From the NCBI GenBank assembly GCA_015179125.1, contig WHVA01000136.1, forward strand, positions 1 to 64,000: a stretch of DNA of 64,000 nucleotides. Direction: 5' to 3'. The DNA comes from Gautieria morchelliformis. Taxonomy: Eukaryota > Basidiomycota > Agaricomycetes > Gomphales > Gomphaceae. The notes under the pieces were generated by a model that had not been told where the DNA came from, did not search any database, and saw only the letters and a list, made by a program, of their open reading frames with translations. The position numbers were made by a program, and so were the translations under genes. Shown here one piece after another: positions 3,172 to 44,698 of this stretch. Position 1 is the stretch's first letter. Each line of letters begins with the position of its first letter.

Positions 3172-3690
3172 TTGATGTCAGTGTTTAACCTTTTTAGGTG
3201 GGCTCATATGGTTGGAGTCCGAATCCGAAGGGGTTTAATCGGGGGTGTTTCCCGTGGGTTGCTTCCCACTGCAGGATTGATCGTATTGTCATGTGTTAAT
3301 CATGAAGGAAGATCCCATTCCTCCTCGTGCGGCGGCAACAGTGTACTCTTGATCAATTTCCATGCAAAGATTGAGGTATCACTTGTATGCGGATTCTCTG
3401 GGTTCATCACCAGGAAGGAGCTTGAATAGGAGCAAGGAAGTGTCAGTGGTGGTGATCTTCCCAGCTCGCCTGCATTCAACGATCCAGAGGCATTCCATGG
3501 CAATTCCGGTTGTGTTGGATGAGGAGGAAGAGGATGCTTGAGCATTGCTAGCCATGAGAGGCTAGATGTACATGCATATAAATAAGAAATGAAACAACTG
3601 CAAAAACTGTGTGAATGTTAGCGAGATTGCAGTAAGCAAGACAAGCATGGGACTACCTGTGCAATGGGGAGCACAGCAAGCGGATAGAGC
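3172..3690. other. intergenic, no gene seen
   Basis: Upstream side of the P450 relic. I looked on the minus strand for its missing N-terminal exons and found none. Nothing else is recognisable before the LTR fragment that follows. Confidence 0.4.
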
Positions 3691-3691
3691 A

Positions 3692-4596: not shown

Positions 4597-4639
4597 CCTG
4601 TGAGGCACATTTAAATAATACAAACAACTATGAAGAATG

Positions 4640-10261: not shown

Positions 10262-10739
10262 CAGCCCCATCACCAAGAGCAGCATTTATGCTGCACAAGA
10301 GAAACTTAATTTCCATTTTTCTATTGAACTCCATGACACGACCAGCTGATTACTATCTTAATATCATGTAGACAGGAGCTTTGTATAGTAGGTACAAGAC
10401 TCTATTCCAAAGCCTAACACCCCTGTCATCATCCCCATCTTTTTCATGGCTTTATGACTACAAATAGTCACCCCTTTAGTTACACATAGTTTTTTGACCC
10501 ATTTACCCATTATCCTGAACACTGGTAGTTATCACCATTATAGTATAAATAGCTACCACAAATGTATTAACTGATCATCCAGAATTTACTGTTTCACCCC
10601 CTGAAGCCACTGTAGTCTTGTTTGATAGCTACAGAACTTAAATCTTGATAGTTTTCTCCAATTCTTCATTGAGAGTCTATTATTGCTGTCTACTCTAAAC
10701 TATCTCAAAAGCGAAGCCTTTTGAGACAGCTGTCCTCAA
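10262..10739. other. intergenic, nothing recognised
   Basis: Between the solo LTR and the LTR starting at 11128 on the minus strand. No coding signal. Part may belong to the distal end of that neighbouring LTR, whose end I could not place. Confidence 0.35.
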
Positions 10740-13390: not shown

Positions 13391-13599
13391 ATCTTTTTTC
13401 TTGGTGTTTTGTTTCGGGAACGGAAATGAGTGAACAGAACAGAGAGATAAGGGAAACAGGTGCCGAGAGGAATGCTGAGAACTACAAGTGTAGCTATTCA
13501 GCAAAATGGCCAAGGTAAAACATAGCAAAGAGTGTATGTGTCTAACTAAGAAAGTGACCATAAAATGAGTGAGAGGGAACGGGAGAGCCAAAGCTCGGG

Positions 13600-14095
13600 T
13601 TCAAGGAACCCATGGTCCAGGCTTGGCAGGGTAGGCCGAGTGAAAGTCGGTCACAATCTTGGCCGCATGGCCGAGCTCGGTCACAAGGACCCATGACATC
13701 TCTTCATTGGTTCCTTCATAACCAGCCCGACGGATGAGGTACAGGAGGTTACAGGGTCTACATCATTGGTCACTCTTGGAATCAAGAATCTTGGAAATCT
13801 CATACTCTGTCTCACCGTCAATCTCAACTGGAGGCAGTGGAGACTGAACCTGATTTGGAATGGTGTTTGGGATTGCAGGTTCGAGCATGGAGACATGGAA
13901 GACTGGGTGGACTGCCCAAAGGCTATCCAGAAGCCATAGAATGTAAGCTCAGGATCTGGCCTGGCCAATAATCTCAAAGAGTGGGAGTGCAACACACATC
14001 AGCCGAGACCTGATACTGAGATTGAGCGAGTTTAATTTGCTCCTTCAGGGTAGCATGTAACTGGTCAAGGTGTGACCTCCACAGCCAGCTAGGGT
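13600..14095 (-). mobile_element. integrase C-terminus and chromodomain of Ty3 chromovirus
   Basis: Fragments match the end of a chromovirus integrase: DQLHATLKEQIKLAQSQY (14060), VHPVFHVSMLEPAIPNTIPN (about 13900) and a chromodomain ending PAKPGPWVP. Chromodomains of this kind steer integration toward heterochromatin marks. At its upstream edge (14060-14102) it carries a block of about 40 bp also found at the 3' end of the LTR at 59561-60054. Broken fossil. Confidence 0.8.
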
Positions 14096-14129
14096 TGCCC
14101 TTACAGTATCCCCCTTACCTCATAAACCT

Positions 14130-14239
14130 TTATTGGTTTTACATTGTTTGCTGAACTACATACCTCATTGCACAAGCCGTTCAGGCATTCACTGTGTTCA
14201 CTAATATGCAATATTAATGCCTAAATCCAATCTTGATGC
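14130..14239 (+). mobile_element. LTR 3'-end fragment
   Basis: About 110 bp matching the 3' end of the 9051-10261 LTR family in the plus orientation, ending in a diverged copy of the CAATCTTGACA terminus. It abuts the Copia gag relic. Fossil; how it got there is unclear. Confidence 0.6.
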
Positions 14240-16240
14240 CATCGAGCAGGCAAGACTTGGCAGTGAGGGACGCCTCGATAGCCACATTGATAGTGTCAGA
14301 ATCACTGCTGCTAGAGTCCACCATAGCATTAGCGGTGTTAGCCTTTGCCGTCTTGTCCGTTTTCTTCAGTTTCTTCTCAGACTGCTTCTTCTGAGCCTCT
14401 TTGAACCAGTCAGGTGCTTTGTCTTCGGCATCATCCCCCTTCTTCCAGCATCCCTTGAACAGGTTGTTGCAGCCACAGTTCGAGCACTTAACAGTAGAGT
14501 GGTAATCAGATCTTGTGGCATTAGCCTGATCAGTCGTGGAGTCTATTTTCTTGCAGGCAGCAAGGTGTATGGTCTCAATGATATCATTCTTGGATGGTAT
14601 GGACTTAGACTTGCCATTCGAGAATACTGCAAGCAGGTGCTTGCAGACTCAGTCGAGGCTGGTCCCCTTAAGCACATTCACGAGGACAAGTATGTCAAGA
14701 TTGGTTTTTAGGCATTAATATCGTGTATTAGTGAACACAGCGAATGCCCGAATGGCTTGTGCAATGAAGTGTGTAGTTCAGCGAATAAGATGTGCGAATA
14801 AATGTTTAGAAGGTAAGATGGCTTCCCAAACAGGGCTTGCCCTATCTACAGTCATAGCAAAATAGCCCGTGATACTTGACGATGTGACGTGCAAGGTCTC
14901 ACGGAAAGGTTGTCTAGTAGTAACAATCCTTTCGCTGGCGAAGGTGCTCCTTCCGAGCCCTTCGCCAACAGCACCGACAATGATATGAAGACTAAAATAG
15001 TGAAGGTGAAGTACGAAAACTCACCAGTGGTGCTTAAGTCCTCTTCTGGTCTAAGGTAGTAGTCTATAGAAGAGGGCTCAAGATGGTAGTCACAGTGAGG
15101 TCAAGTTTTGCACAAGATAGACATATGATAATTGAACTGCAGAATATACATGGGAATGTAAACTACTTATACCAAATGCCCATATGATCTCCGTGAATAG
15201 GAAAGAGGCCGTCGTGAGTCAGGGTTGGATAGGGGAGCACAGTCAGGATACAAATAGATGAAACACATATACAATGGAAATAGGGAGGAGTGCAAACGTG
15301 AAACAATGGGGGGAGAGAGGATAAAGGTACCTATGTAATAAAACACACCTTGAGACCTGCATACATGTTACCCTGCACGGACTCTTGGCCTGCTGGGTTG
15401 ATCCCACATGATCTACAGGTAGGACGTCCCACGAATGCATTCCGGCCATAGGAACACCCAAAGGGGGTTGGGTTGGGAAGATGATTGGGCCAGTGATGAA
15501 CCATCACGCTGGGTAAAGGATGTTCGATCGTGTTTGATGGTGTGCCTATTGGTGAATGATGCGAGTAGCGAATGGTCCTTCGGCAAATTCAGCGAAGGGC
15601 GAAATGGAGAAAACATAGAGGTGGAGTGATGAAAGGGAGAATGGGAATAGCTGGGTACCAGAAATAAATGAGTCATGACAAAGTACAGTGTATTCATCCT
15701 AGGTAGGCGCATGGCCTTCGTCATAGATATTGGAGACAGCATCCTCAATCTCAACGACAGTGTGGGCAGTTTTTGACAGGTCCGTGAACTTAGCGCTGAT
15801 TGTAAACGTAAGCGCATCGATCTTGGAAATCATACTGCCATTATGAGTGTGAAGCTTAAGGAGATTCCAGGCATCGTTTGCGGACATGGTAGGGAGGAGG
15901 AGGCGATGGAGCATACTATCAACCTGCTTGCTAAGAGTGCCAATGATGCACAAGTTGATAAGATGCCATTCAGCAGATTTCTTTTGATCAGCGGGTTCAT
16001 CAATGGAACCATCAACGTAGCCCATGATGCCAGCCTCAAGGAAAGAGAATTCCATCTCCCAAGACCATTTCAGCCAAGAGCCCTCAGTAAGCTTCTCTAA
16101 GTCCTTCACTCTGATGTGATATTCAAGTACCATCATAGATGTAGAGAAGTAGGCAGAGAGAAGTAGTATGGGGGGTAGCTACAATATTGGTTATGAAGAT
16201 CCGCATGTAGTGTGATACTTAAAGCGTGGATCCCTGAAAA
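14240..16240 (-). mobile_element. Ty1/Copia gag relic, split by a solo LTR
   Basis: Minus-strand gag of a Copia-type element. The N-terminal part (16136-15699) shows EKLTEGSWLKWSWEMEFS, GIMGYVDGSIDEP and SANDAWNLL, typical of the Copia gag (UBN2-like) family. The C-terminal part (about 14690-14240) shows a zinc-knuckle region CSNCGCNNLFKGCWKKG and a Ser/Asp-rich tail. The two parts are separated by the solo LTR at 14693-15681. A candidate primer-binding-site region lies near 16260-16280. No pol region of this element is seen. Broken fossil with a few disruptions. Confidence 0.75.
14693..15681 (-). mobile_element. solo LTR with 5-bp target duplication, nested in Copia gag
   Basis: A 989-bp LTR of the same family as 9051-10261 but on the opposite strand: on the plus strand it begins TGTCAAGATTGG and ends GAGTCATGACA. 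It is flanked by the exact duplication AAGTA (14688-14692 and 15682-15686). The Copia gag reading frame continues on both sides, which fixes the order: Copia first, this element later, then recombination to a solo LTR. Confidence 0.92.
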
Positions 16241-22518: not shown

Positions 22519-23780
22519 CTACATCTCCAATTCAGTCGCCAGTAGCTCCTTTATCAATCTCTCAGCCTCCCATACGTCGTCTTCCGGGTCCCCTCTTCCC
22601 TCCCACAACCATTCAGAGAGGCTGTTCAAAGCTTGTGCCACGTGCTCAGTAGAACGACCATCATACTCCTCCAAGAACTCGAAAGCGCGTCTAGCTTCAT
22701 GAGAACGATATATGACTTGGTTTGCTCTCGGTGCTCTCACTCGCTCATATGCCAGAAGCACAGCGGGAAGCATATCACATGTTGCCAAGGAGGAGCCTAG
22801 AAGGCGGGAGAGGACATAGGCATCCTGTGCATCCGAGAAGATTCAGCTTCACCCGATCAGCTAGGGAAAATAGATATACCTCAAGGACTTGGCCGCCTCC
22901 GGCACCGAGAAAAGGCATGGTAGCGTGGGCCTAATGACAGTATAAGTATGTGATCAACCTTATTGGTGGAAGTTACTCGCTGCATCTCCCAACAAAGTGA
23001 CGCGACCCCTTGACCAGAATTCAAGTGGTTCCACGTCATATATCGCCCACCTGGACGACTTATCGACACACTTCAAGTTGGCCAGAGTTGAGCTTGCACT
23101 CCGAAATGGATCGACGGGTTATGAGATATACCTACCTTCAAGAGCACCTGAACCTCAGGTTCAAAGTCTTGGAATTGATCAGAAAGTTCAGCATGGTCCG
23201 CCTCTGCCACCCACGCTTGACTTCCCCACTCTGCTTGTCTTGCGGGATCAGACGAATAGGCGATAAAGTTGAGGAAACAACCGCCTCCAACAGGATATGT
23301 CACAACGTGCTATAGAACGAAGTCCAGATTGAGCAGAACATGTCATGCAAGGCTGCCGAAATACGCCTGACCCGGTTCCTTCCACAATACTGAAATTTTG
23401 TCGTCAACATCGGTATATATATGACACCAGGATATTGGGAACACACCATCTTCTGCCCAGAAATTGCGCTGTGGTCTCCGGCGACCGCTTTCAGGTCCTC
23501 GGGTTTCACCAGGGCACGATATGCCATGGTGCCACTGAAAGTAGTGCCAGCAAATCTTTTCCCGTCATTGGTTGTATTTGGTGTATATTTGTTTGTGATC
23601 GGCTCTGTTCTGCAGCTCATTAGTTCTCCACGAACTGCACTCTTGATTCCGTCGCTTCCGACAAGGACATCGCATGTCGCACAGGTACCATCAGTGAAGC
23701 AAAGTGTCACAGAATCGCGAGGGGGGACATGTGGATCGATTCAAGTGTCTGGACTCGGGGGTACGGTGTTCCAGAGGCAG
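22519..23780 (-). pseudogene. salicylate-hydroxylase-like FAD monooxygenase, N-terminally truncated
   Basis: Class A flavoprotein monooxygenase, a family that hydroxylates aromatic acids using NAD(P)H and O2. Visible parts are the DG motif region CDVLVGSDGIKSAVRGEL (about 23670), YRALVKPEDL, VTYPVGGGCFLNFIAYSS (about 23290), then LLGDAA/HATMPFLGAGGGQ, the FAD-ribityl GD motif, rebuilt across an intron near 22930-22995, and a C-terminal helix region ending at 22519. The intron at the GD motif reads best as GC-AG. The first 110 or so residues with the GxGxxG FAD-binding fold are absent, and the sequence between 23300 and 23460 does not join cleanly. I judge it a truncated, probably dead copy. 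Confidence 0.75.
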
Positions 23781-24099
23781 CGGTGGCTAAGATGCTAGTC
23801 TATCGAATGGGGAGGGATGTAGGTAGTCATATATATCAGAAGCATCGATTTAGGAAAGAAAGACATATGGAAGATATATGAAGATGCGGCTCAGCCTCTA
23901 GCTCCTCCGTGGATCAATGCGCCTCGGGCTCGGGCTTTGTCTCGAATCCGCGGGTACTGGATCAGGGTTGAGTCGGCAGGGCAATGGAAACATCGTGGTG
24001 TGTCGTGCGGATGTGTGTGGGTTCTAGTGAGGAGCTGAGGATCAGTGGCATGGACGTGTCGCAGGTGGGAAGGATTGGATGGGTAAACTGATAGTAGTG

Positions 24100-25330
24100 T
24101 TTTGGAATAGGATTATGACAAGGAATTTGATACCTGTGGCACCTGCGGAGACCAACACAAGACCTCGGCCTGCGCCAACACTAGTAAGGTCTGGTGCGCG
24201 TCCTGCAACACAGACACCCATGCCAGCTGGGACTGAGCATGTCCCTCATTCATACGCAGATGCGAAGAGATGGACGGGAGACTGCCGGAGAACCTCCTGC
24301 CTTACTTCCCCACAGCAGAACCATGGATGCACGTCTCGCAGCCACCAAAAATAGCCCCCCCCCACGCTGATGCTACCACCACCTGCCAACCCACACACCA
24401 CAGGGGGGTGGACAACAGTCTCCTGCCACGGTAACACGCACAGACAAACCACTCTACCCTACCAGCCGGCACTACCAATACGACCGCCGGCGGGCCAGGG
24501 GAGACCCATATCACAACGGCAGACCAGCCCTGCCACCTTACCCAACTGCATCGACTTAGGCCCCACACAACAATGGGGCGACACAGGCAACCAAACAGGT
24601 CAGCCCCCGCCTATGCAAAACTGATGTCATATACGATAGAACCCACACCGAAGAGATTGAAAATATTCCAACAAAACCTAAACAAATCCGACAAAGCTCA
24701 ATTCAACCTCATCAACTCGCCGATACACAACAGCTGGGACCTCGTACTCCTACAAGAACCATACATCGACGCCCTGGGAAATACCAAGGCCAACCATAAC
24801 TGGCACATACTCTACCCCACGTCCCACCTTACTGACAACTCCACAAAGCGTTCCGTCATCCTGGTCAATGCGATGCTTGACACAAATACATGGAAACAAC
24901 TAGTGTACACACACTCGAACGACGTCACCGTGTTCCAGCTCACACACCCACAAGGTAAAGTAACGATATTTAACATATATAATGATTGTACACACTTGAG
25001 CACCATATGCCACCTCGAGCAATTTCTAGAGACAGAGCGACACGACATACTATCACGTGACTCGGATGCCATGGTCTGGTGCGGGGACTTCAACCGTCAT
25101 CATCCCATGTGGGACAAGGAGCGGAACTGTCACCTCTTTACGGCTGCAGCAATGGCGGAGGCGGAGAAGCTGATAGCAGCGATAGCAGACTACAACATGG
25201 TAATGACATTACCAAAGTGCCTGCCCACTCTACAGTCCATGTCAACAAAGAATTGGACTAGAGTGGACAACGTGTTCTGCACTGACAACGTAGCTGACTC
25301 CATAGTTAAGTGTGACACTGACCCGGGCGC
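24100..25330 (+). mobile_element. LINE (Tad1-like), 5' half: ORF1 zinc knuckles and ORF2 endonuclease
   Basis: Non-LTR retrotransposon. The end of ORF1 (about 24112-24330) encodes zinc knuckles CGTCGDQHKTSAC and CASCNTDTHASWD, then ENLLPYFPTAEPWM, as in fungal Tad-type gag-like proteins. ORF2 starts near 24624 and gives an apurinic-type endonuclease: IFQQNLNKS, LLQEPYID, WCGDFNRHHPMWD and TRVDNVFC. The reading frame ends at DTDPGA exactly where the left hydrophobin repeat arm begins (25331), so reverse transcriptase and 3' end are missing. ORF1 has a stop (SWD-stop-ACP) where the family has Arg, consistent with CGA to TGA. Loss of the 3' rather than 5' part is unusual for a LINE and points to a later rearrangement. 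Confidence 0.85.
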
Positions 25331-25862
25331 AGTTTCAAGAGCAAACTTCCCAAGGCCTTAAAAAGTGCCAAACCTCTAACGAGTCAAGTGCTAACCAAGA
25401 CCGGCCAGCTCTATCCAAGGAGACAAAGGAACACGTCATTGCCTAGGACGAGCTTTTTAGGCGTGTACAGTAACAATTGAATGGCTGATAGTAACTGATC
25501 TGGCGTGTGATGTCTACGCTCGACCAACAGCGGATATCTACAATGAATCGCCTGCGCTTCCGTGAAATGATCAACGTCGCATCTCGGGCAAGGAGAGCGT
25601 GAAAATCCTTTGCCTTGCCGAAGCTAGCGAACTAATTCACCAGCATCACTAGCATATATAGGTTAGACGGGTTCTGCATAGAATGGATGGCTGAAAGCCA
25701 ACACGATGCCAATTTTCCTTTTTTTTTAACAATAAAATTGCAATTTATTGCACGCATGTTGCAGATCAACGACATTGACTACAGAAATATACACGCAAGA
25801 CCAATTCACATGGAAAAGAGAGTTATGCCCGAAATAAATTTAACAGCAATGGGTAGTCTTAT

Positions 25863-26344
25863 TTACAAGGAGATGGGGGTGCAGCCGATGTTGATCTACA
25901 TTTATATTAAGCAAGGGTGCACTCATATCATGCCGAATAGGAACTCACGACGCCGTTGAAGTTGTTGTTAGTGCAACACACGGGCTGCTGGGTGCAGGTA
26001 CTACCTCTGCACATAGAATGGGTGGTTAGCAATTGATAACAAACCAGATCAAAGCAAGAAAAGACTAACACGATGTTGACGCAGTTGAGGCCAACAACGA
26101 CAGAGGGGTCCTGGAGGATAATACCGAGCAAGCCTATGATGGCGGCAGCACCGGGCAGAGAGTTGGCAGCTCCGACGCTGTTGCAGCACTGAGCAGCACC
26201 TGGCAAGGTTGTCAGCAGGGTGTCAAGCTATTAGAATACACACGAAGTCTCACCAGTGTTGCACTGCGAGGTGGTGGTGGTGGGAGCCGCGGCGGTAGCA
26301 AGGATAGCAAATGTGGAAACGACGACAGGCTTGAAGAACATCAT
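25863..26344 (-). CDS. class I hydrophobin, left copy
   Basis: Small secreted amphipathic protein that self-assembles at air-water interfaces to coat hyphae and fruiting structures. Four exons on the minus strand (mirror of the right copy), joined length 103 residues. A ~20-residue signal peptide starts MMFFKPVVV. The eight cysteines follow the hydrophobin order C-x-CC-x-C-x-C-x-CC-x-C: QCNTG, AQCCNSV, GLNCVN, STCTQ, PVCCTN and GCTPISL at the end. The start is the first of two adjacent ATGs, about 85 bp downstream of TATAAAAG. It differs from the right copy by one residue I could see, Val for Ala, in the codon split by intron 2. Both copies look intact. Confidence 0.93.
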
Positions 26345-26426
26345 GTTGAGAAGAGTAAGAAGAGCTGGAAGTGGTGAGTAGTTCGACTGGTTGGTTAAAC
26401 TGCAGAAAATCTACGAAAGGGATCGC

Positions 26427-26434
26427 CTTTTATA
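26427..26434 (-). promoter_or_regulatory. TATA box of left hydrophobin
   Basis: TATAAAAG on the minus strand, about 83 bp before the start codon; the same box lies at the mirror position in the right arm. Confidence 0.65.
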
Positions 26435-27139
26435 CGATGGACGGTGCATACCAGATGACATATTCGCTGCATCGAGGTACCCGTCGCTCCACAGTGGCGT
26501 TCATTCCGCACATGGTCCCGGACCACGACTTCAACTAACATCACAATGAGCAAATTGACCCATTTGTGGAAACTTGACAGCACAGCTAGAGAAGGGGATG
26601 ACAAATGTCATATATTCTGAAGGCGTATGCTGTGCTTTTGATCAAGTACGCACTAGTTCTGCGAACGCTCCACATCAATAGCGGGTGTTCGGCTAGCAAG
26701 GGTTCGAGCTTGCAACCAAGACAGGATTCGAGTTAGACAGGTAACAACCTGTAATAGCCACAACGATCTGCATTGGAGCTTGACGTTGAATAAATATCTG
26801 ATTAACCATAGGAATGTTTAGGCCAAGGACTGCTGCTGGTCACAGGAAATATGAACAGCATTAGAAGCCAAGAGAAGCACAAGCAGTATTTCGTGGACGT
26901 AAAACTTGAAAAACAAAACATTGACAGCGGCCACCTGAACTATGACGGTGTTCGCTGCCTTCTTTGACGCCGCTGGACGAGCAATGAGCACTGGCAGGCA
27001 ACAACCGCACCGACAGTGAGCCTTAAGGCACAGCCACATTAGTCGGTGAAAACCATCAGTCTGAGGATCATCAGTGATTGTGACGGTAGGTTTCATTACG
27101 GTATAGCTGTTGTCCGTGACCTTGGCATCCCGTAGAAGC

Positions 27140-28051
27140 TGAAAGCCAGCTTTTTGATGCTCCACCTCAGGGTAAAGTGAAGTAAAACATGGCATCTGTG
27201 CCAGTGGAGCGTTTTTCAGCCTTGAGTGGAGGCGTGCCTAGAACAATCTGGTGGCTTAGTAGAAGACTGTCACGGTGAAGCACTCCAAGCAATCTGCGCC
27301 CGCTAGTACGTAGGGGTCGGTCCAAACCTGTGTATAAGTATACGTTAGTATCCATCGGGACAAGACAGCTTGGCTGGCACGAGAAATTTGTTGATAGCTG
27401 GCTAAGTTGAGATTCCATCACCAGTCGTCATCGCTTACATAATTCATCAGTGTTAGGGACGTCCTTACACAGAAGAATTCCTTACCGAGCTCTCGGTTTC
27501 GCGCGTCGTCGCACGTGACCCTGTGCACATTCGCTGTCTCTCAACCTCAGCTTGTGTTTTTTATTCTTCTCTTTTGTTCTTCAGGGTGCGCTTCACCCTA
27601 TCGCTCAGCATTGCTAGTTCCCCTAAACTCTGCCGCACGCTCTGGATTGAGTCCCGTTGGTCCGCGCTCGCATCAGACACGCGTCAGCGAGCCGTCATAC
27701 GTGTCTCAACGGGAGTATGTAGGAACGCCAAGGCATATACCGTACGTACGGCAGCCCCAAGTACCTGGACAGCAGATACTATATGTCACGGTAAACGCTG
27801 CTCCCGACGCGGTCTTGTTGCGGATGCGTGCGGTTGCATCCGCAGAGCAGATCATGTCGACTATCCGGTGCCACATGACTTTGTTCTACGAAGCGTAGTA
27901 CCACGGCCAGGAGGAACGTTAAGGCATGTACCGTACGTATGGCAGCCCCAAGAACCTGGACAGCAGATACTATATATCACGGTAAACGCTGCTCCGCGGT
28001 CTTGTTGGGTGCAAGCTGCATCCGTGTTTCTTTTGGTGCCGCTTCACAATT
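27140..28051. repeat. spacer of the inverted duplication with a direct repeat
   Basis: Unique 912-bp spacer between the arms. It contains a direct repeat about 191 bp apart: copy 1 about 27721-27820 and copy 2 about 27912-28010, both with AAGGCAT-TACCGTACGTA and CTGGACAGCAGATACTATAT blocks. No gene is supported; frames that cross into the right arm are open but match no family I know. Confidence 0.75.
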
Positions 28052-28756
28052 GCTTCTACGGGATGCCAAGGTCACTGACAACAGCTATACCGTAATGAAA
28101 CCTACCGTCACAATCACTGATGATCCTCAGACTGATGGTTTTCACCGACTAATGTGGCTGTGCCTTAAGGCTCACTGTCGGTGCGGTTGTTGCCTGCCAG
28201 TGCTCATTGCTCGTCCAGCGGCGTCAAAGAAGGCAGCGAACACCGTCATAGTTCAGGTGGCCGCTGTCAATGTTTTGTTTTTCAAGTTTTACGTCCACGA
28301 AATACTGCTTGTGCTTCTCTTGGCTTCTAATGCTGTTCATATTTCCTGTGACCAGCAGCAGTCCTTGGCCTAAACATTCCTATGGTTAATCAGATATTTA
28401 TTCAACGTCAAGCTCCAATGCAGATCGTTGTGGCTATTACAGGTTGTTACCTGTCTAACTCGAATCCTGTCTTGGTTGCAAGCTCGAACCCTTGCTAGCC
28501 GAACACCCGCTATTGATGTGGAGCGTTCGCAGAACTAGTGCGTACTTGATCAAAAGCACAGCATACGCCTTCAGAATATATGACATTTGTCATCCCCTTC
28601 TCTAGCTGTGCTGTCAAGTTTCCACAAATGGGTCAATTTGCTCATTGTGATGTTAGTTGAAGTCGTGGTCCGGGACCATGTGCGGAATGAACGCCACTGT
28701 GGAGCGACGGGTACCTCGATGCAGCGAATATGTCATCTGGTATGCACCGTCCATCG

Positions 28757-28764
28757 TATAAAAG
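28757..28764 (+). promoter_or_regulatory. TATA box of right hydrophobin
   Basis: TATAAAAG 83 bp upstream of the start codon at 28847, identical to the mirror position in the left arm. Confidence 0.65.
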
Positions 28765-28846
28765 GCGATCCCTTTCGTAGATTTTCTGCAGTTTAACCAA
28801 CCAGTCGAACTACTCACCACTTCCAGCTCTTCTTACTCTTCTCAAC

Positions 28847-29328
28847 ATGATGTTCTTCAAGCCTGTCGTCGTTTCCACATTTGCTATCCTTGCTACCGCC
28901 GCGGCTCCCACCACCACCACCTCGCAGTGCAACACTGGTGAGACTTCGTGTGTATTCTAATAGCTTGACACCCTGCTGACAACCTTGCCAGGTGCTGCTC
29001 AGTGCTGCAACAGCGTCGGAGCTGCCAACTCTCTGCCCGGTGCTGCCGCCATCATAGGCTTGCTCGGTATTATCCTCCAGGACCCCTCTGTCGTTGTTGG
29101 CCTCAACTGCGTCAACATCGCGTTAGTCTTTTCTTGCTTTGATCTGGTTTGTTATCAATTGCTAACCACCCATTCTATGTGCAGAGGTAGTACCTGCACC
29201 CAGCAGCCCGTGTGTTGCACTAACAACAACTTCAACGGCGTCGTGAGTTCCTATTCGGCATGATCTGAGTGCACCCTTGCTCAATATAAATGTAGATCAA
29301 CATAGGCTGCACCCCCATCTCCTTGTAA
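28847..29328 (+). CDS. class I hydrophobin, right copy
   Basis: Exons 28847-28937, 28992-29121, 29185-29242 and 29296-29328; introns of 54, 63 and 53 bp all GT..AG; joined product 103 residues. Signal peptide, then Cys1 in SQCNTG, Cys2-3 in QCCNS, Cys4 in LNCVN, Cys5 in STCTQ, Cys6-7 in VCCTN, Cys8 in GCTPISL, giving the full class I pattern with a Gly/Leu/Val-rich loop LPGAAAIIGLLGIIL between Cys3 and Cys4. The last exon adds only ten residues but carries the eighth cysteine. The two copies are divergently transcribed, starts about 2.5 kb apart, each with its own promoter, so both could be expressed. Confidence 0.94.
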
Positions 29329-30089
29329 ATAAGACTACCCATTACTCTTATATTTCTTTCGGGCATAACTCTCTTTTCCATGTGAATTAGTCTAGCGTGT
29401 ATCTTTCTGTAGTCAATGTCGTTGATCTGCAACATGCCTGCAATAAACTGCAATTTTATTGTTAAAAAAAAAAGAAAATTGGCATCGTGTTGGCTTTCAG
29501 CCATCCATTCTATGCAGAACCCGTCTAACCTATATATGCTAGTGATGCTGGTGAATTAGTTCGCTAGCTTCGGCAAGGCAAAGGATTTTCACGCTCTCCT
29601 TGCCCGAGATGCGACGTTGATTATTTCACGGAAGCGCAGGCGATTCATTGTAGATATCCGCTGTTGGTCGAGCGTAGACATCACACGCCAGATCAGTTAC
29701 TATCAGCCATTCAATTGTTACTGTACACGCCTAAAAAGCTCGTCCTAGGCAATGACGTGTTCCTTTGTCTCCTTGGATAGAGCTGGCCGGTCTTGGTTAG
29801 CAGTTGACTCGTTAGAGGTTTGGCACTTTTTAAGGCCTTGGGAAGTTTGCTCTTGAAACTTGTCGCTTCGCACCATTCATTGCACTTACTCTGATTGAGA
29901 ACTGCGCCTGAATGAGCTGGAGACAGAGCATAGATCGCAAACGCACCTCGCGTGTAGCTTGCATAATATGGCGGCGGATCAAGTGTGGTCACTTCATGGA
30001 AGTTCATGCATACATTTCACCTTGGGGCGTTGCTGTTTGCTAGAAGCACAAGTTGAAAGATGAATGAGCTTGCCATCTGCACAACGTAT

Positions 30090-30715
30090 CCACTTACTAG
30101 CCAATTTTACAATCAACCACTTTGGGCATTCATGTACAACACGCAAATTATTGAAGAAAAACTCCATGTTCCGTGTGCGACATTCCGGATCGGACAAAGT
30201 TGCCGCCTCTAGCTCCCCAAACCTACAGTTCTTTGAAAGAATCATCAGGATGAGGGTCCGCCTGGGGCCGGGGGTGTTGATCGAGTTTACCAGGTACGGG
30301 GTCTTCAGACCTGTCCGGGTTATCGATTTATCCCTCAACATTTGACACTTCGATGATTCGCCAGTGGCTGAACCTTCGTAGCCACTTACTTGCAAATTTT
30401 ACAATCAACCACTAGTTCGGGCTTGACAGGTCATGTACAACATGCAAATTATCGAAGAAAAACTCCATGTTCCGTGTGCGACAGAAGTTCCGGATCGGAC
30501 AAAGTTGACGCCTCTAGCTCCTCAAACCTGTACAGTTCTTTGAAAGCATCATCAGAGATCGACCTTGATTAATTGGATCTAATCGGGTAAGAAACGTGAC
30601 AGTTTATCAGGTACGGGGTCTTTAGACTTGCCGTTATCCCTTGTGACGTCAACTTCGATGATTCTTTCTGCTTGCACGAGTTCGTTACTGGCAGTGTACA
30701 TCCACTTAGTGACGT
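30090..30715. repeat. tandem duplication of a ~300-bp unit
   Basis: Two diverged direct copies: about 30090-30379 and 30380-30715. Shared blocks include ACAATCAACCACT, GAAGAAAAACTCCATGTTCC, TCCGGATCGGACAAAGTTG, CTCTAGCTCC and CAGGTACGGGGTCTT, in the same order in both. A minus-strand frame in copy 1 (29994-30395) reads like one exon of an unidentified gene, so this may be a duplicated gene fragment. Confidence 0.8.
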
Positions 30716-30837
30716 GCTGAGGACACCATCATGATATGGCCCCGCATGCCCAGTGGGTTTATTGTCCTCCGTGACGTCGGGCCAGGGACTCGGACTCTGA
30801 TCAGCTTCCACTCCACTACACAGCCAGACGTTAGGTT

Positions 30838-31237
30838 GTTTTTTTTTTTTTTAATAATCCAATTTATCGTCTTTTGGGGCCGAGCCCTATGTAAGACGGT
30901 TTCTACAAAGCCCCGGTCAACAGGTGTGTCCGCCATGTCTTTCGTTCTCTATCCCTGCTTGCGCTCATGGGGCAGAGCCCCGAGCGAGTCCTGCCTATGT
31001 GGGCGGGGTTGTGGTAGCTTTGCGCATCGCGCATCCGTGTGATCTCTCCGCGTTTCATCTCGCCTCTCTGTCCTGCACCTCCGGTAGCTCGAGCTCCCCG
31101 TGCGTTTTTTCGAACCTGCGTGTAGCGCTGATATACTTGAACAAATGCGTCATCGCCTTCGGCCTTCCCAGCAATGTTCTCGCGGACTTCGCCCCTCTGC
31201 ACAGCCCCTTCATGCACCAGCACTCTCCTCTGCGCAG
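30838..31237 (-). mobile_element. SINE copy, probably 5'-truncated
   Basis: Minus-strand copy with the family 3' stem-loop (30869-30897) and a T run on the plus strand (its poly-A tail) at 30839-30852. CGTTAGGTT flanks both ends (about 30829-30837 and 31239-31247), giving a 9-bp target duplication. The body shares GCAAGCAGG-ATAGAGAACGAAAG with the copy at 4964. No good tRNA head is visible. Confidence 0.7.
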
Positions 31238-31247
31238 GCGTTAGGTT

Positions 31248-32667
31248 ATCATCCGTATGTCAAGTGCGGCCAGGTATCCGATGTGGCTTGCATCAATGCC
31301 TATGGGCCCCCCGAGTCAGTCGTCCTTTTGATTCTTCCGCCGCAATATCATGCTCCCTTACATGTCATATATCGTTTAGGTGTAACTTCACCCCAGCTTT
31401 CACATGGCGGTCCGACGAGGATGGCGGATATGAAAACAGTCTTGGAAGTCTTGTATCCACGTTCTTCACAATAAAGACTCATTCAGCCAGTCCCCTTGTT
31501 GCTTGAAGCTCTTCATAATCGCTGTCTGTGATGCTGAAGGCTCGCCTAACCTCTTGGAACGGATGGGGTGACACCCTCACCGGGGCCGCATGAGCAAACA
31601 AGAGTGGTAACGTTGTACTGTAGTAAAAAGATAGGGGCCGGTGCAATACCGAGCAGAAGCTCTACCTACAAAGATATCTCGATACCTTTGAGCCTGGGAA
31701 TAGACCTAAAGGAGCAGCGAAGGATGAAAGCAAGACAAGGTACCACTCCACATACCTTCAGACCTTGTGTTGAGCAGTGGAACAGTCCATGTGATCATAA
31801 CTGTGTTGATATTTTTCTCCTAGTAGGAAGGGGCCATCGCGTATGTGATCGTGACCTTCCGTTTTCCAGTAAATCTGTCGTATTTTGGATTCTGCATCCT
31901 TGAATAACTTAACATTCTCCTTTACTTCTCTCCATCCACCCCTAATCTTCTTCACTTCTGACGCTCAATTGCGGGGTATAATTAATAGTCGTATTCATGC
32001 TAGGCGGCTGGGACGGAGTCCGCTCGCACATATGCATGGCCAGTTTAGTGGACATTCGCTCTTTCTCGTTCTATTTCCGAAGGTTATATCATGGAGGAAC
32101 AGGGTTCTTTGTAGTTATATATATAGAGATATGTGACATATTCTGAGCCATATATAGTTACAGACCTACCTAAAGTCTGTCTATACGTCTGAGGTTGCTG
32201 GCGTGCGATGAGACGAGGTTAACAGCCCTTGCTGGAGTCAGGAAAGGACATATGGCCACATCTTCACGAATTGTGAAGAGGCAATCTTACCGGCCTCTGG
32301 CATGCTTCAATATTCGTGCGCACACAGACCTTAACAGACGGGCGATAATCGATACTAGGTGAGCTCTCATCACTCCGAAGATTATCTAGACTCAGCTATC
32401 CGTGGCCCGCAAATATTGGGCTTAAAACGCAATGATTCCGTGGTATTTACCGCGGTAAGACCCTTTGCGACTAAAAGAGCTGACCCGGCCTACCCCACGT
32501 CCACATATGTGAGGTCGCGACCTAAGTTTCTTTCAAACTCAGGATGATCAGGTGGATTTACCATGATGTTGGGCGCTCCTATGGCTCCCACGTTTTATGC
32601 AGCATTCACAGTGAGAATTTTGGGCGAGTAGATCGTACTCTGTATTATGTAATGTCGCTAACACCCT
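31248..32667. other. intergenic, no gene seen
   Basis: Upstream region of the methylesterase gene. Open frames are short and mutually shadowing. No repeat ends or motifs recognised. Confidence 0.45.
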
Positions 32668-34227
32668 ATGTCCGCACTTCAACGTTCCGCCTTGAGTGCC
32701 AGAATAGCCAAGCTGCCCCAGTTGCCGCCTGGAATTGCGCCAACTGTCGCACCGCAATCAAACTATGATGACTGTGAAGACGATGTGGAGGAAGACGAGA
32801 CTGATGGCTTGGGGGCATTGCCTAGCATGGCGCCCTCAAATCAGTACATATATCAACTTTTCTCTCGAAAGACGCCAGCAAACAAATTTGAATTTTTCTT
32901 GTTCCCTACAGATCAAACCGACCAAACCGGTCTCTAAAGCGCACCAAGCCCCACGATTCCGAACTTACACCTATTTCAGCAGCGTCATATTTTAGCCAAG
33001 CTGTAGAGGTTGCTGTGCCACCAGCCCAGCTCACATTCCGCGTTTACTACACACCTCCCAAATTATCTGGCACCAAGGGCACGGTTATGGTTTGCCACCA
33101 TGGCGCAGGCTTTTCTGCCCTCAGCTTTGCATGTTTCGCTAAGGAAGTGGAGAACTTGAGTCACGGAGAGTGTGGGGTATTAGCTCTAGACGCTAGAGAA
33201 CATGGTAGCTGTCCAGCGTGTGTGATTATGCTGGTGCTCACGTATGCTGGTACTCTAGGCAGGACTGAATCGACTGCTGCCGCAGAAGAGATGGACTTAT
33301 CGGTCGAGAGGCTCTGCGTCGACGTGGTAGAGTTGATAAAGACTATTTTTCCAACGCCGTCGGAATCTCCCACTCTACTTGTACGTATATTTACCTTCTT
33401 ATTCCGGTCATGGTTCTGAGACCAAGTACTTGTCAAGCTAGTAGGACACAGCATGGGCGGGTCTGTGATTGTTCGTGCCAGTGGTGCTCTTCTTGCAGCC
33501 AAGTACAAACTCGCTGGTGTTGCTGTTCTGGATGTTGTAGAAGGTGTGCATGAGTGCATTGCAATTGTTGAATCCAGGTCCTAATGCGCGTCCCTGTTAG
33601 GCTTCACTTTGGACGCCCTCCCACATATGCACAATCTCCTTGATTCTCGTCCAGATGGCTTTGATTCGCAGGAGGAGGCCATCCAATGGCAGTGCGTTGC
33701 CGTCTTATTTGTGTCACCTCATCAAGTATAAATTGCATTCAACTGCAGTGTTTCAACAAATACAATTCGCAATCCTCTTTCTGCCAGAATATCTGTTCCG
33801 CCAATAATCACTCCTTCCGGTACAGCATGGAGGTGGAGAACTCCATTACGCTCAACGGCCCCATATTGGGCTAGTGAGTCCCCAGATGTCCTGACTCTAT
33901 GTCATGCAAATTTTTGTATCCAGATTGGTTCACCGGCTTATCGAAGACGTTCCTGAGTGCTCGAACGGCGAGATTACTCGTCCTTGCCGGTACGGACCGC
34001 CTGGACAAGGAGCTCATGATTGGACAAATGCAGGGGAAATTTCAGCTAGTAGTAATTCCGAATGTGGGGCATATGGTGCATGAGGTTAGTCTCCCTTCCA
34101 TTATCATCATTGAGTGGTGGTCAACAATACGCAGGACGATCCGACACGCCTTGCGGAAATCCTGGTCGAGTTTTGGAAAAGGAACGATCGCGTTGTCGCC
34201 GGCGTGAAGAAGGTTGGAGAGTCATGA
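32668..34227 (+). CDS. PPE1: protein phosphatase methylesterase 1 (PME-1 / Ppe1)
   Basis: Alpha/beta hydrolase that removes the methyl ester from the C-terminal Leu of the PP2A catalytic subunit. First exons 32668-32843, 32912-33204, 33259-33380, 33438-33543, then three more ending at the TGA of 34225-34227. Family blocks in order: N-terminal PISAASYFSQAVEV, the oxyanion region MVCHHGAGFSALSFACFAKE, LALDAREHG, the nucleophile elbow LLLVGHSMGGSVIVRA, AIQWHV-TNTIRNP-SARISVP, PYWANWFTGLSKTFL, LLVLAGTDRLDKELMIGQMQ and the catalytic His in NVGHMVHE, ending LAEILVEFWKRN. The nucleophile Ser (GHSMGG) and His are present. Its stop lies 46 bp from the stop of the convergent RIX7 gene. Confidence 0.93.
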
Positions 34228-34273
34228 CATATTGTAGCCCCCAAGACATATGTATTACTCTGTCACGTTTAGC

Positions 34274-36939
34274 CTACTTTTCGTCTCCCTCCTGGGGCTT
34301 GCTCATTCTTACGGGCAACCCTGCGAATTTTGCTCTGAGCGACTCGTACCTCCGCCGTTGCGACACGCTGACGCTTGGCCCAAGGTTGTCTAGCGCCAGC
34401 TCGAACTCCCGCACCCCCACTCTAACATCCGTGCCTTCTTCCTGCGCGGTGCTCAATTCGCGACCTGCATCCAGATCGCCAATTCTTTGCCTCAATGCAC
34501 CAACGGCTGCCTCTCTTACAAGTGCTGCTAGGTCCGCGCCGCTGTACCCCTCACATCTAGACCGCACAATTGCCTCAACAGCCGGAAGTGCATCATCATC
34601 CAGTGGGACGCTGCGCGCGTGGATCAGGGTGCGGACAATTTCAGCTCGCTCTTCTGCCGATGGAAGATCGACATATAGCAACTTATCGAGGCGCCCTGGA
34701 CGACACATGGCCGGGTCTATCATGTCGGGACGATTTGTCGCCGCGATAACGTAGACTGCCTTGCGGGCATCGAGGCCATCCAGTTCAGTAAGCAGCGTGT
34801 TGACAACTCGCGCTGATGACTCCGACTGGAGTCCGCGTGGTTAGTCTCACCGAACACAATCTACTTCAAGGAAGACAAAGAGCGTACCAGACTGTCATCT
34901 CTTCGTGGAACGAGAGCATCAAGCTCATCAAAAAATATAACGCACGGCGACGAAGCCCGCGCTCGTGCAAAGACCTGGCGAACGGCACGCTCGCTTTCAC
35001 CTACATACTACATGATGTAACATTAACTTAAAGAACCAAATAGTCACCAAGTACCAACCTTGTTCAGCAATTCAGGCCCTTTCACAGAAATGAAGTTCGC
35101 ACGACTCTCGTTTGCTACAGCTTTTGCTAGAAGCGTCTTCCCACATCCTGGCGGTCCCCACAGTAAAACGCCACATGGTGCCTCCACTCCTAGCTTTTGA
35201 AACAGTTCCGGGCGGCGGATGGGCTGTACGATTGCCATGTGAAGCTCCATTCGGGTGGCATGGAGGGCGCCAATGTCGGCCCACGTTACGTTTGGCACAG
35301 TTGCGAACCCTTCTCGTGTGGACGATGGCTGAACCTGTCCAAGGGCTGCCGCGAAGTCTGAGGGTATAATGTTCAGGGGTGAGAGCTGGGTAGGTGTGAG
35401 AGGTGTTGGATGGGCGCGTAAAAAGGAAGCAATCGAAGGGTCAGGAATAGATGCAAAGGGAACATGTTTGGTGGGAGTGACGCTGATGTCGTCTGAAGGG
35501 TTCTGAGGCGCCAAGTTATCGACTTCCATGGTCGTGTCGCCTTCAGACACCATAGCTGGAAATGGGTCATCGGGGAGAATTAATGTTCCATCAGAAAGTT
35601 GCTGAAATATTCTTTTCACCGCGATAACGCCAGCAGCTCCAGTCAGAGCGGCAAGGTCTGCGCCGACATAACCAGGCGTAGCTTTTGCCATTGCCTTGAA
35701 ATCAAAGTCGCCGGACAACCTCAACTTTGCGCACAGAACACGGAGAATTCTGCGGAGTATGCGGGATTGATCTGAGACCTTGTATTGAAAATGTGATCAA
35801 AAACATACTGAGCGCGAGCGGCGTCATCAGGAACGCCCATACTAATCTCGTGATCAAACCTTCCAGCTCTACGTAGGGCTGCATCAAGAGAGTCGGGCCG
35901 ATTTGTAGCCCCAATCACTATCACAGGTTTGTTGTCAGTCTTCTCCCATGATAAATCTACGCATAAGAAATATATGAGTGTCTCACATAACATGTCTGAC
36001 CTTGGCTTACCATCCATGCATGTAAGAAATTGTGCCACAATTCGACGTTCCATCTCTCGCTGGGCACTCTCGCGTTTGGGTGTGATGGCGTCAATTTCAT
36101 CGATGAAAAGGAGACAGGGTGCTGCACGCTTAAGAGGCAAGGAATACATCAGTCCGGAAGGCCATAGAATCAATGGGTGCGAACCTTTGCCTCATCAAAT
36201 GTATCCCGGAGTGTCTTCTCCGACTCACCGGACATGCCTGAAACAATGGATGGAGCAGAAACACTTATGAATGGAAATCCAAGCTCCTGTGTTAGATGTC
36301 AGCCTCTTATGACTATACCCACCACGGGGTACAGCTACTTACCCCAGCTATTGCATTTGCAAGTAATGTCTTCCCACACCCTGGCGGGCCATGCAGTAAG
36401 ACACCTCTAGGAGGCTGTATCCCAGTGTGTAAATACACCTCTGGATGGGACAGGGGCATTGCCACCAACTCCAACATCTTCTCCACGCAAGGTTGGACGC
36501 CTCCAAGGTCCGATAGTCGTGTGCTGGGTGCGATATGGTCCTTAACACTAGACGATGTCTTTGCACGTTTGCTACTGCGTTCTTCAACGCCATCAGTAAT
36601 ACGCGCAGAACGATTTCTACGCTTCGGCGTTGGTAGAGTAGATGTAGGGAGAGGTAATGGAAGACCTGGAGAGGCGTCCGCAGTATTGGCATCCTCTGCT
36701 GGAGTTGCTGTGCCACCTGTATTAGAGCCGTCCTGACCCATTACAGCAGGAGCTTCTTCGGAGACTACAGTGGGTGGAGTCGATGGTAGGGACGCATTCA
36801 GATTCACTTTATTCCGTCTGTGGTTGGTCCACAGACCCTGCATGCTCCTATTAAGAGCATTTCCAGCCTGACTTAACGGTTAGATTAATCGAAAAGAACA
36901 TAAGGAGGTATTTAGAGCGCTGCTCACAGATATATCCAT
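34274..36939 (-). CDS. RIX7: ribosome biogenesis AAA ATPase Rix7 / NVL
   Basis: Type II AAA ATPase that strips factors such as Nsa1 from nucleolar pre-60S particles. Eight exons on the minus strand: 36939-36928, 36867-36343, 36286-36185, 36128-36011, 35956-35809, 35749-35059, 35007-34888, 34825-34274; 755 residues. Basic N-terminal region with PTPKRRNRS and SSKRAKT, likely nuclear localisation signals. First AAA module: Walker A GPPGCGKT, Walker B LLFIDEID, sensor [13 protein letters not shown], arginine-finger region LRRAGRFD. Second module: [70 protein letters not shown] is typical of Rix7/NVL. The start (a 4-codon first exon) is chosen because its frame joins the next exon; the ATG at 36843 is the alternative. 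Confidence 0.93.
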
Positions 36940-37031
36940 ACTGGGAGATTTCGAGGGCTGTGGGCGGTTGTGGGCCAACCGTTCTTCGTCGTAGAAAATC
37001 TTTTTTCAAGTCTAGTGAGGAAACAGTGAGC
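36940..37031. promoter_or_regulatory. bidirectional RIX7-LAS1 promoter
   Basis: Only 92 bp separate the proposed start codons of RIX7 (minus) and LAS1 (plus). Whatever drives the two genes must be packed here or inside their 5' ends. No clear TATA box is visible. An in-frame upstream ATG for LAS1 at 36960 would shrink the gap to 20 bp. Confidence 0.7.
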
Positions 37032-41793: not shown

Positions 41794-44698
41794 CTACCGC
41801 TTTTCGGAGGATGCAGTCACACCTGACACCATGGTCTGTGCACCTGTACTATAGGACCCAGAGGCGAACGTCCCGGTAAAAGTTATCTCACTGGGTCCGG
41901 AGTTGGGTCTGCTGCTGGTTGTTGCACCTGACTCGTCCTCAGTTTCCCTGTCTTCGATCGTTTGCTCCATAGGGGGTTGCATGGTGCCCGACGGCCTGAA
42001 AAGCGGGAGTGGCGGCGGGCCATCTCCTCCCAGGGCAGAGAGACTGGCCCGATGAGAAGGTACGAAGTTCCCATAATCACTCTCTTGGCTGGAAGGGTGG
42101 GATGCCGCGTGCGAGTGGGAGGTGGTGTGCGTGTGCTGTGACGGGCGAGAGGAGTGAGAACCCGAACCGGAGTGGGATAGGATGTCCGAGCGCGAAGAAG
42201 CGTATAAGGAAACGTTCGGCGTGAGGACAAAGCCTAAGCTACTTGGAGGGCGCAGTGACGCAGAGGATGGATCAGCTCGTCGAAGTCCTGATGAGAAAGA
42301 TGCTGTCTCGGATGTAGCGGGATCACCAGGGATCACGCGGACGGCTTGCTGGAAGGTACATTGCAGGTTGAGAGATCCGCTTCGCTCTATGTGAGACCAA
42401 GACAAACACTCACCTCTCCCATGCTATTCCGAGTCATCGGACCGAGAGCTCTCCCAGTGCCTGGGACGGCGCCGTCACCTGCATCGCTCGTGCTTCCTTT
42501 GCTCCGCATGCTACTCCATTCACCGCCTGCTTGCGGGGGTTCTTCCTCCAAGATGTCTCTCTCTTCTCTGCGGTTCGACGAGCTAGTATGCGAGCGACGG
42601 TCCCATTGTGGCACAGCAACCAAGCCAGGTGGAATGGCTAAACCCGTGGCTCGTGAGGACGCCGTGTCGGACCTAAGTGCAAGTTCCGGGAGAACAGGTT
42701 CACTGAAAGGCAAAGCACGTTCGGGCACAGGGAGGTCGAGCATGTCCACGGATCGAACCGTGTCTCCACCGTCACCCAAATCCAGATCTGGGGGAAGGGT
42801 GATAAGGGTGGGTAAGGCAGGAAGAAGCTCCCTCTCGTGATGTGCAAGCATCGGGGTTTGTGGCCGAGACGAAATGGAATGGTATACTGTCCCACCGCTT
42901 TTGCCACTACCGCTTCCTCCGCTTCCGCTCCCTGTTCCAGAAACAAGGATACTCGGCGGACGCATGCCGAGTTCAGCATCAATACCACGGGAGCTCACAT
43001 CAGACAGTGGTCTCGGAGCAAATGTCGGAGATAACAACCATGATCCCGAACCAGGACGTGTAAAGCTCACACCACTGGCTGGCCTGCTTCCCGGCTTGCC
43101 CTCTGGCTTGATTCCGGATTTGCTCGACTGGCCGCCCTCAGGCTTGCTTCCGGATTTGCTGCTCACAGGTTTACTTCCTCGATGGCTCGAATTGGGACTA
43201 GAATGACGTGTGCTGCCTCGGCCAATATGCGCCTCCATACGTCTGAACCAGCTGAGTCGGCTAAGACGTCCGGCAAATCCAGTGAGGCCTCCCATAGAAT
43301 TACTCCAAGTCCCTGGACTGGTATGTGTCCCGGCCATATGATCATGAAGGTCGCCACTTAACGAAATCGTCCAGTCCTCCAAGTTCTTGCCTTTCTCTGA
43401 GGGAGACGATGGTAGAACCGGGTCTGATGCTGATCTAACATTGACTCGGCGCGCCGTGAGAAGCGCGGCACGCTCATCAGTTTCACTAGGTGGGCTGTCG
43501 GGATAAACCCAACTGGCTCCTGAGCCGCTTGAGGGCTGAGCGTTTTGCAAGTGGAGCACACGATCTGGGTCAAGTGGCCGCGGGGGACGGAATTGCTCCT
43601 CTGGCTCATCGTCATCGGGAGATGTTGGATATACGAGATTGTATTGAGGATCAGTAGGTAGAGGGTGGGTCAGTATATGCGGAGGCCCTGCCCCTGGGGG
43701 TCGCGCTGAGTAAGTTTTTGAAGAGGACGCTACAGCACCTGCTGTTAAAGAAGTCCCTTCTCCTTCAACGAGTTCTTCGTCAGATCGCCTAACGCCATTG
43801 CCCCGACCATCCTCTCGCAAAGGATTGAAGAAGAGCGAACCCGCAGCAACACTGGATCCACTGGCATTAAGGTGCGTAAGGGCCTCCCTTTTGGCAGTTG
43901 AGTCGAGTGTGGACGTATCGGTCTTGGCAGCCCACGATCCAGAGCCAGAAGTGCTACGAGCTAAGGCTCTGGGTTCACCGACTTGCTGAGACCAGTTAGA
44001 CCCAGCGTGTGACAAGGTGGGTCCTCTAGAGTTCTGTGCCATGCTGCTGGGACCGCCAGTTATAAACGAGGCAGCTTCCCCATCCTCGGCGGCTGTTTCG
44101 ATAGGTTGTTGTGTGGCTGATGGATTGACCAGCTGCCAATTAGAGAAGTTTACCCGGCCGCCGGGAGTAGCGCGATTTTCACGCCGCCGCCGACGGATGA
44201 GGCACAGAACAACGACAAGTGCGACCATCGCTATCGTACCAAGAACCGTGGAAAGGATAATGGCCAGACGTGCACCACTGGATAATCCATGCGAGGCAGT
44301 GGCAAGAGCAGACGATGAGGGTGAAGCAGACGAAGAAAGCGAGGTACGGGATGAGGTGGTAGACGCATTGATGGACGAGGATGTGGATGAGGATGAGGTG
44401 GCAGTTTGACTAGGAAAAGAAGTCGATGTAGAAGCCGTACTCGGCATGGAAGATGCGAGCGATGTGGCGATGGAAGCTGGAAACGTCGAGCCACCGAACA
44501 CCCACCCAGGGCCTAGCGGAATCTACACGCAACTGATTAGCACGCAATAGCTCTCAAGGAATCAAGACTCACGCTTGGTCCATAGTAGGTCTGAGGAAAT
44601 TGAACCACCGTGGTCTGTACCACCGCCGTGCCGTCTTGTGTAAGAGTGACGGGTACTGGAGAAAGCCACGGTGGAAAGGCTTGTGTCGGCGCCGTCAT
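41794..44698 (-). CDS. mucin-like single-pass membrane protein
   Basis: Three exons, 44698-44573, 44522-42414 and 42348-41794; about 929 residues. The N-terminal ectodomain begins MTAPTQAFPPWLSPVPVT and passes into a Ser/Thr/Ala-rich mucin-like stalk (about residues 55-125). One transmembrane helix follows, LAIILSTVLGTIAMVALVVV (about 128-150), with the stop-transfer run RRRRR on the cytoplasmic side. The very long cytoplasmic tail is Ser/Pro/Gly-rich and disordered. There is no classical signal peptide, so the helix likely acts as signal-anchor. The layout resembles fungal Mid2/Wsc-like wall sensors, but no WSC or cysteine domain is seen, so the role is open. Confidence 0.8.

Follow-up and report, generated by a model that had tools for sequence, protein, structure and literature searches.

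What keeps two hydrophobin genes in the arms of a palindrome nearly identical over promoter and exons, when the sequence downstream of them has diverged? The question is raised by a locus of Gautieria morchelliformis lying in a stretch of 64,000 nucleotides (contig WHVA01000136.1, positions 1–64,000; hereafter the window), which is contig C156 of the 122 Mb, 1113-contig genome assembly that we searched. The locus is one of at least three related palindromes in this genome. We think it likely that it is a divergent pair of class I hydrophobin genes derived from an inverted duplication, and that the gene cores have been homogenised by gene conversion between arms. The features on which the argument turns are as follows.

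25331–27139, minus strand: left arm of the inverted repeat, 1809 nt
27140–28051, no strand assigned: spacer, 912 nt
28052–29860, plus strand: right arm of the inverted repeat, 1809 nt, 17 mismatches and no indel relative to the left arm
28847–29328, plus strand: right hydrophobin gene, class I, 103 residues (exons 28847–28937, 28992–29121, 29185–29242 and 29296–29328)
25863–26344, minus strand: left hydrophobin gene, mirror of the right (exons 26254–26344, 26070–26199, 25949–26006 and 25863–25895)
29265–29473, plus strand: stretch of intron 3, exon 4 and 3' flank in which 13 of the 17 arm differences are clustered and which would have escaped homogenisation

Self-BLAST and a repeat search both recovered the arms as an earlier note on this DNA had placed them, matching end to end without an indel (99.06% identity over 1809 nt, ungapped; E-value 0). 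The mismatches, 7 transitions and 10 transversions, are unevenly spread. With positions expressed as offsets along the 1809-nt arm, and with the left and right arms of a contig written as L or R and its number (L156, R448 and so on), there is none between offsets 26 and 1069, a gap as long as which occurred in 0 of 20,000 random placements, while 13 fall at offsets 1214–1422, including one silent change in exon 4. Within the spacer are two direct copies of approximately 100 nt (27721–27820 and 27912–28007), and none of the three open frames (151–212 residues) overlapping it has a Pfam match.

The gene model common to both arms comprises four exons separated by three GT-AG introns, with an open frame of 103 residues in which the eighth cysteine is contributed by the short exon 4. 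Both spliced proteins contain eight cysteines in the order C-CC-C-C-CC-C, which we take to be the pattern of these hydrophobins, the class I label being likewise our assumption; both match PF01185 (73.7 and 73.9 bits against a cut-off of 23; E about 2e-20), their top-scoring solved structures are hydrophobins (e.g. 6e98, 2nbh), and the predicted protein has a hydrophobic N-terminus. The only residue difference is at the codon spanning the exon 2/3 splice, valine in the left copy and alanine in the right; among the six arms of C156, C448 and C893, the related palindromes described below, alanine occurs in R156 only, and it is also found in a more distant unit, C138a. A TATAAAAGG box lies at offset 706 in both window arms, so that the cysteines, the TATA boxes and the single Val/Ala change reported in the earlier note all hold. 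In L448 a one-base deletion at offset 709 falls in this box and the exact TATAAAAGG is absent, which may be real or a consensus error. Since each gene is read outward, the two promoters face one another across the spacer. Class I hydrophobins are secreted, self-assemble into insoluble layers and coat aerial surfaces, and by analogy with the family the encoded proteins would coat hyphae or other aerial surfaces.

Arm-like sequence gave 56 matches genome-wide, and two further contigs have the same paired layout: C448 (379615–381422 minus, 382335–384145 plus, spacer 912 nt) and C893 (4325–6118 minus, 13292–15100 plus). The window spacer differs from its equal-length C448 counterpart by one mismatch and from that of C893 at 20 of 910 sites; the C893 spacer also carries a long terminal repeat (LTR)-like insert whose 608-nt direct ends are 99.8% identical. 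The C893 arms extend both outwards and inwards, as an inverted repeat of 3356–6216 and 13180–16044 at 89% identity. A fourth and more diverged pair lies on C184, with arms 92.3% alike over 1967 columns. Because sibling palindromes are present in the same genome, a simple assembly mirror is unlikely and the structure appears to be a real inverted duplication, as the earlier note had held. An inversion of the spacer between loci was ruled out, all three spacers having the same orientation relative to the right flank.

The numbers of differences between arms are 3 for L156–L448, 17 for L156–R156, 31 for L448–R448, 33 for R156–R448 and 48 for L893–R893. We applied a GENECONV-like permutation test to the 15 arm pairs (106 polymorphic sites, Bonferroni correction), in which the longest concordant runs of L156–R156 (offsets 29–1066, corrected p 0.012) and of L893–R893 (offsets 378–866, corrected p 0.015) were both significant; when the window arms were tested again, on 40 sites that vary among four arms, the longest run had p 0.018. 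Over offsets 373–1188, which cover the promoter and exons 1–3, there is one difference in 816 sites within the window palindrome and one in 800 within C893, compared with 22–26 differences in 799–816 sites (2.75–3.19%) in the eight comparisons of C893 arms with those of C156 and C448. Outside this tract the C893 arms differ at 47 of 971 sites (4.84%), and the C448 arms differ at 9 of 815 sites inside and 22 of 992 outside. Fisher tests against four C893–C448 baselines gave, for C893, p values of 6e-8 to 3e-5 at offsets 373–1188 and of 0.011 to 0.040 at offsets 26–1205; the corresponding values of the window are 0.002 to 0.035 and 5e-5 to 2e-4. Compared directly with C448 at offsets 373–1188, the window gave p 0.0034 and C893 p 0.35.

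Over offsets 26–1205 the window arms are also more alike than either is to its C448 counterpart, strongly so for the right arm and by two sites only for the left (L156–R156 1/1180, R156–R448 15/1180, L156–L448 3/1179). With the C893 arms as outgroup, R156 appears as a mosaic in which derived states of the left type occupy two sets of offsets (319, 388, 1137 and 1198; 1587 and 1655) and right-type or ancestral states are found at offsets 1214, 1231, 1253, 1305, 1387 and 1752; the state at offset 25, held in common with R448, belongs to the recently copied block considered below. A derived T at offset 495 is confined to L156 and R156, thus the exchange seems to be later than the split from C448. 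The tracts may be placed as follows.

28370–29249, plus strand: proposed minimal conversion tract of the right arm, with left-type derived states at offsets 319, 388, 1137 and 1198; outer bounds 28077–29264
near 29638–29706, plus strand: second, short left-type patch of the right arm

We propose that conversion tracts over the promoter and exons 1–3 formed in the window palindrome and, independently, in C893, for both of which the support is strong, that they are not evident in C448, and that conversion in the window would have run mostly from left to right. Judged from sequence comparison, the uneven distribution of mismatches is best explained by gene conversion between arms, a process that the earlier note had named as a possibility and for which the permutation test and the counts inside and outside the tract both speak. 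That note had also seen the differences cluster in the 3' flank, as they do, and had taken this as a sign of true divergence; the cluster is better read as the part that conversion missed. Cruciform formation, which it had also suggested, is unlikely across a 912-nt spacer; what the present evidence supports is recombination between arms. Distance between inverted repeats is described as lowering their power to cause rearrangement, and the title of the same source has widely spaced repeats becoming potent in long single-stranded DNA (PMC10164571).

A different kind of exchange is indicated by comparison of the window with C448. The features concerned are these.

23719–28117, no strand assigned: block nearly identical to C448 from 378002 onward, with 4 mismatches in 4332 sites to the end of the spacer and a rough right end (27980–28118)
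23719–24120, no strand assigned: fragment of a dispersed repeat whose copies on C448, C970 and C394 run past the equivalent of 23719, where the window copy stops
24121–25330, plus strand: long interspersed nuclear element (LINE)-type element, represented by its endonuclease part alone (PF14529, PF03372) and broken off within the frame at 25330/25331, the start of the left arm
29861–31816, plus strand: right flank, which in C893 recurs beyond the left arm (inverted) and, as far as 30820, beyond the right arm

Differences between the two loci rise in steps, from 0/1612 in the left flank, 3/1808 in the left arm and 1/912 in the spacer to 33/1808 in the right arm and 40/538 in the right flank. The best change point is at 27980, with 3 differences in 4261 sites before it and 34 in 1881 after it (permutation p 0.001); this test used the 37 of 77 differing sites that lie before the right-arm end, leaving out the 40 in the right flank. 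Collinearity extends only over 23719–30403 (6.7 kb), beyond which the DNA is unrelated, and window DNA up to 23716 matches another place on C448 (424821–426528) at 94%. As C448 keeps the continuation of the dispersed repeat and the window does not, the simplest account makes C448 the donor and the window the recipient; about 4.3 kb of flank, left arm and spacer would have passed recently from C448 to the window as a copy. Homology within the right arm would have initiated the copying, and a non-homologous join at 23718/23719 would have terminated it. The further amplification of the gene that the earlier note envisaged thus has partial support, in the approximately 4.3 kb found nearly identical at this second locus.

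The left arm does not end where the duplicated unit naturally ended, since the LINE frame is truncated at 25330/25331, and copies of the element on C672 and C473 stay mutually alignable (81%) for approximately 590 nt past the cut point; on this sequence evidence the outer end of the left arm is a rearrangement breakpoint. The C893 arms continue past the equivalents of both 25331 and 29860, and the 1809 nt are thus the remnant of a longer inverted repeat. For its origin, fold-back or template switching would have produced the ancestral inverted duplication, and the inverted duplications described for these mechanisms would likewise give an inverted pair (PMC10622511, PMC3907307, PMC10766183).

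Several points weigh against the interpretation given so far. R448 and L893, which are not arms of one palindrome, also have a significant concordant run (offsets 1303–1397, corrected p 0.009); either patchy exchange also takes place between arms of different palindromes, or variation in rate is what the test detects. The remaining 12 of the 15 pairs were not significant in the permutation test, and C448 lacks significant homogenisation in the Fisher tests (p 0.10 to 0.82 at offsets 373–1188, 0.25 to 0.53 at offsets 26–1205). The tract bounds for the Fisher tests were picked after seeing the data, and only the permutation test is free of this. The timing of exchange after the split from C448 depends on one clean site (offset 495) and one ambiguous site (378), and the direction of copying from C448 to the window on one junction.

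Alternatives to conversion must also be considered. The palindrome could be real, with short-read or consensus polishing of the assembly having replaced isolated differences in the right arm by the majority state of near-identical copies. Such a process would fit the left-type states at scattered sites of R156, where the dense cluster at offsets 1214–1422 and sites near unique DNA keep their own state, and the TATA-box deletion of L448 resembles a leftover consensus error. C448 is only a partial control for this, since every L448–R448 difference has a neighbour within 100 nt on at least one side, and none is isolated by more than 100 nt on both. However, R448 retains differences from L448 throughout the tract (e.g. 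at offsets 906 and 966), R156 retains differences at 1070 and 1571, each more than 100 nt from any other, and C893 has the same pattern at different sites, with 47 of its 48 arm differences lying outside offsets 373–1188. We therefore regard a polishing artefact as unlikely.

That a single locus is represented by the window, C448 and C893, as alleles or haplotypes assembled on separate contigs, is similarly hard to credit. The three loci do have further flank pieces in common, although in shuffled order. Two parts of the window (33000–37000 and 42000–48600) each match only themselves in the genome, although a sequence for which no other match is returned need not be rare. These self-only matches, together with the shortness of the 6.7 kb collinear block that gives way to unrelated DNA, make it probable that the loci are paralogous, provided that the assembly did not partly merge haplotypes.

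It is less probable still that there was no conversion, and that a young duplication simply has a promoter and coding sequence evolving more slowly than the 3' flank. Within C448 the sequence at offsets 373–1188 does show half the divergence of the remainder of the arm (ratio 0.50), and the four pairs involving R893 give inside/outside ratios of 0.56–0.60. Against this, the 2.75–3.19% divergence of C893 from the other palindromes inside the tract compares with 2.32–5.34% outside it, and pairs with L893 give ratios of 1.02–1.24, whereas within C893 itself the figures are 0.12% inside and 4.84% outside.

A mobile element with long terminal inverted repeats, each carrying a hydrophobin gene, would suit three loci of identical inverted architecture, two of them with the same 912-nt spacer, but is very improbable, as the outer ends are not common to the loci (the C893 arms outrun those of the window, and the left end abuts the truncated LINE frame), the right half is 1.8–7.4% diverged from C448 and the left half is not, the three spacer-overlapping frames of at least 150 residues belong to no Pfam family, and inspection by eye of the window arm ends revealed no target-site duplication. 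The 1809-nt ends were in any case ruled out as limits of a mobile unit, because the matches stop at the end of the query and C893 runs on.

Arm-to-arm conversion, the explanation that we prefer, has been described in the palindromes of mammalian sex chromosomes (PMC8981503), where inverted gene copies are likewise held near-identical; unlike those large palindromes, the ones in G. morchelliformis have arms of 1.8–2.9 kb, carry a surface-protein gene, have tracts confined to promoter and exons, and include one of three that is not homogenised. The hydrophobin families of two earlier studies are described there as evolving by duplication and by birth-and-death of separate copies (PMC2253510, PMC3879219). 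Among basidiomycetes, 26 class I genes are given for Phlebia brevispora and 24 putative genes, with 8 probable pseudogenes, for Heterobasidion irregulare (PMC3879219), and our 22 loci (a lower bound) resemble these families in being clustered paralogues formed by duplication. When 13 genes of H. irregulare are considered, that paper gives a single recombination event; unlike the present analysis, its main text does not contain the words 'gene conversion' or 'inverted'. The class II hydrophobins of Trichoderma are likewise a duplicating family, for which the sections of the study cited here report that recombination was not found and judge concerted evolution unlikely (PMC2253510); in contrast, conversion tracts are indicated here, and it is because of that judgement that the case is notable. 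Conversion in palindromes and clustered hydrophobins are each known, and their combination with sister palindromes is a good case study and no new kind of system. Sister palindromes within one genome act as built-in outgroups, so that conversion tracts can be mapped and their reach tested.

If this interpretation is correct, two surface-protein genes can be kept alike by a fungal palindrome that is short and has a spacer of 0.9 kb, the reach of conversion taking in the promoter and coding exons and sparing the 3' flank. Homogenised copies may raise dosage, and a change in one copy could spread to the other or be erased, the alanine of the right copy being an example of a change open to either outcome.

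A profile search of the genome with Pfam gave 26 hydrophobin matches, merged by place into 22 loci, eight of them in four pairs; these counts are lower bounds, weaker relatives such as C131:168175 and C138:297001 lying outside the list. Eighteen of the 22 loci were aligned as units; with exon bounds transferred, the frame is open in all 18 and each has eight cysteines or more, with two exceptions to the common form, a GC donor in C666 and nine cysteines in C131a. The tree of these units places all six arms from C156, C448 and C893 in one group and both C184 arms in another, each with support of 100/100. The C184 arms are 95.0% alike in this comparison and at most 91.6% similar to other units, and we describe this pair as apparently older than the other three. 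Among 17 chosen pairs, point values by the NG86 method gave a nonsynonymous rate (dN) below the synonymous rate (dS) in 14; the exceptions are C131a–C666 and R156–C666, with dN slightly greater than dS, and L893–R893, with dS of 0. Several aspartates occur at C131:161837–163337 and C666:30975–32599 where other hydrophobin copies have asparagine or glycine.

A broader scheme may be put forward tentatively, as one that we consider possible though doubtful: hydrophobins of this genome would evolve in concert through palindromes, by repeated formation of inverted pairs, homology-seeded grafts of half-palindromes, and conversion that keeps promoter and exons identical as flanks diverge, with C184 as a second, older case. 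A common origin of the C184 palindrome and those of C156, C448 and C893 was considered and dropped, as the evidence was insufficient. The right halves of all begin at nearly the same base, and C893 seems to continue past this common start (by a match to C571). Left- or right-specific states compared with C184, counted as parallel/crossed, were 0/2 for C893, 0/1 for C448 and 0/0 for the window, none of them shared.

More diverged hydrophobin-like stretches lie in divergent orientation across a related spacer at C131:168175–168498, C138:297001–297271 and C571:235004–235316, which suggests that two unlike, divergently oriented genes may have made up the ancestral layout and that one of them was later replaced in the palindromes. 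Pieces of the hydrophobin promoter of 482–489 nt, matching window 28298–28766, were found at C1054:17202–17690, C1004:224898–225386, C480:338–826 and C654:29563–30044. On C1054 and C1004 the piece sits within a repeat having 577-nt inverted ends and also containing part of what we presume, from its resemblance, to be a DEAH-box helicase gene; this repeat is possibly a gene-capturing transposon, although the flanks are also common to both contigs, which may therefore represent a single duplicated stretch. A second dispersed repeat family holds hydrophobin exons 3–4 and the 3' untranslated region at about 78–84% identity, with members at C360:181187–181438, C573:31642–31893 and C1015:6177–6427 and on C380, C793, C843 and C564; shorter kin on C97 and C217, outside the 56 arm matches, share the outer parts of this repeat.

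Elsewhere in the window, a repeat of up to about 0.9 kb is present in direct and inverted copies (77–91% identity) at 3695–4597, 9179–10262, 14693–15628 and 55442–55772, and positions 57789–58527 consist of tandem copies, repeated about every 206 nt and 93% identical to one another, that are open in three overlapping frames of the minus strand.

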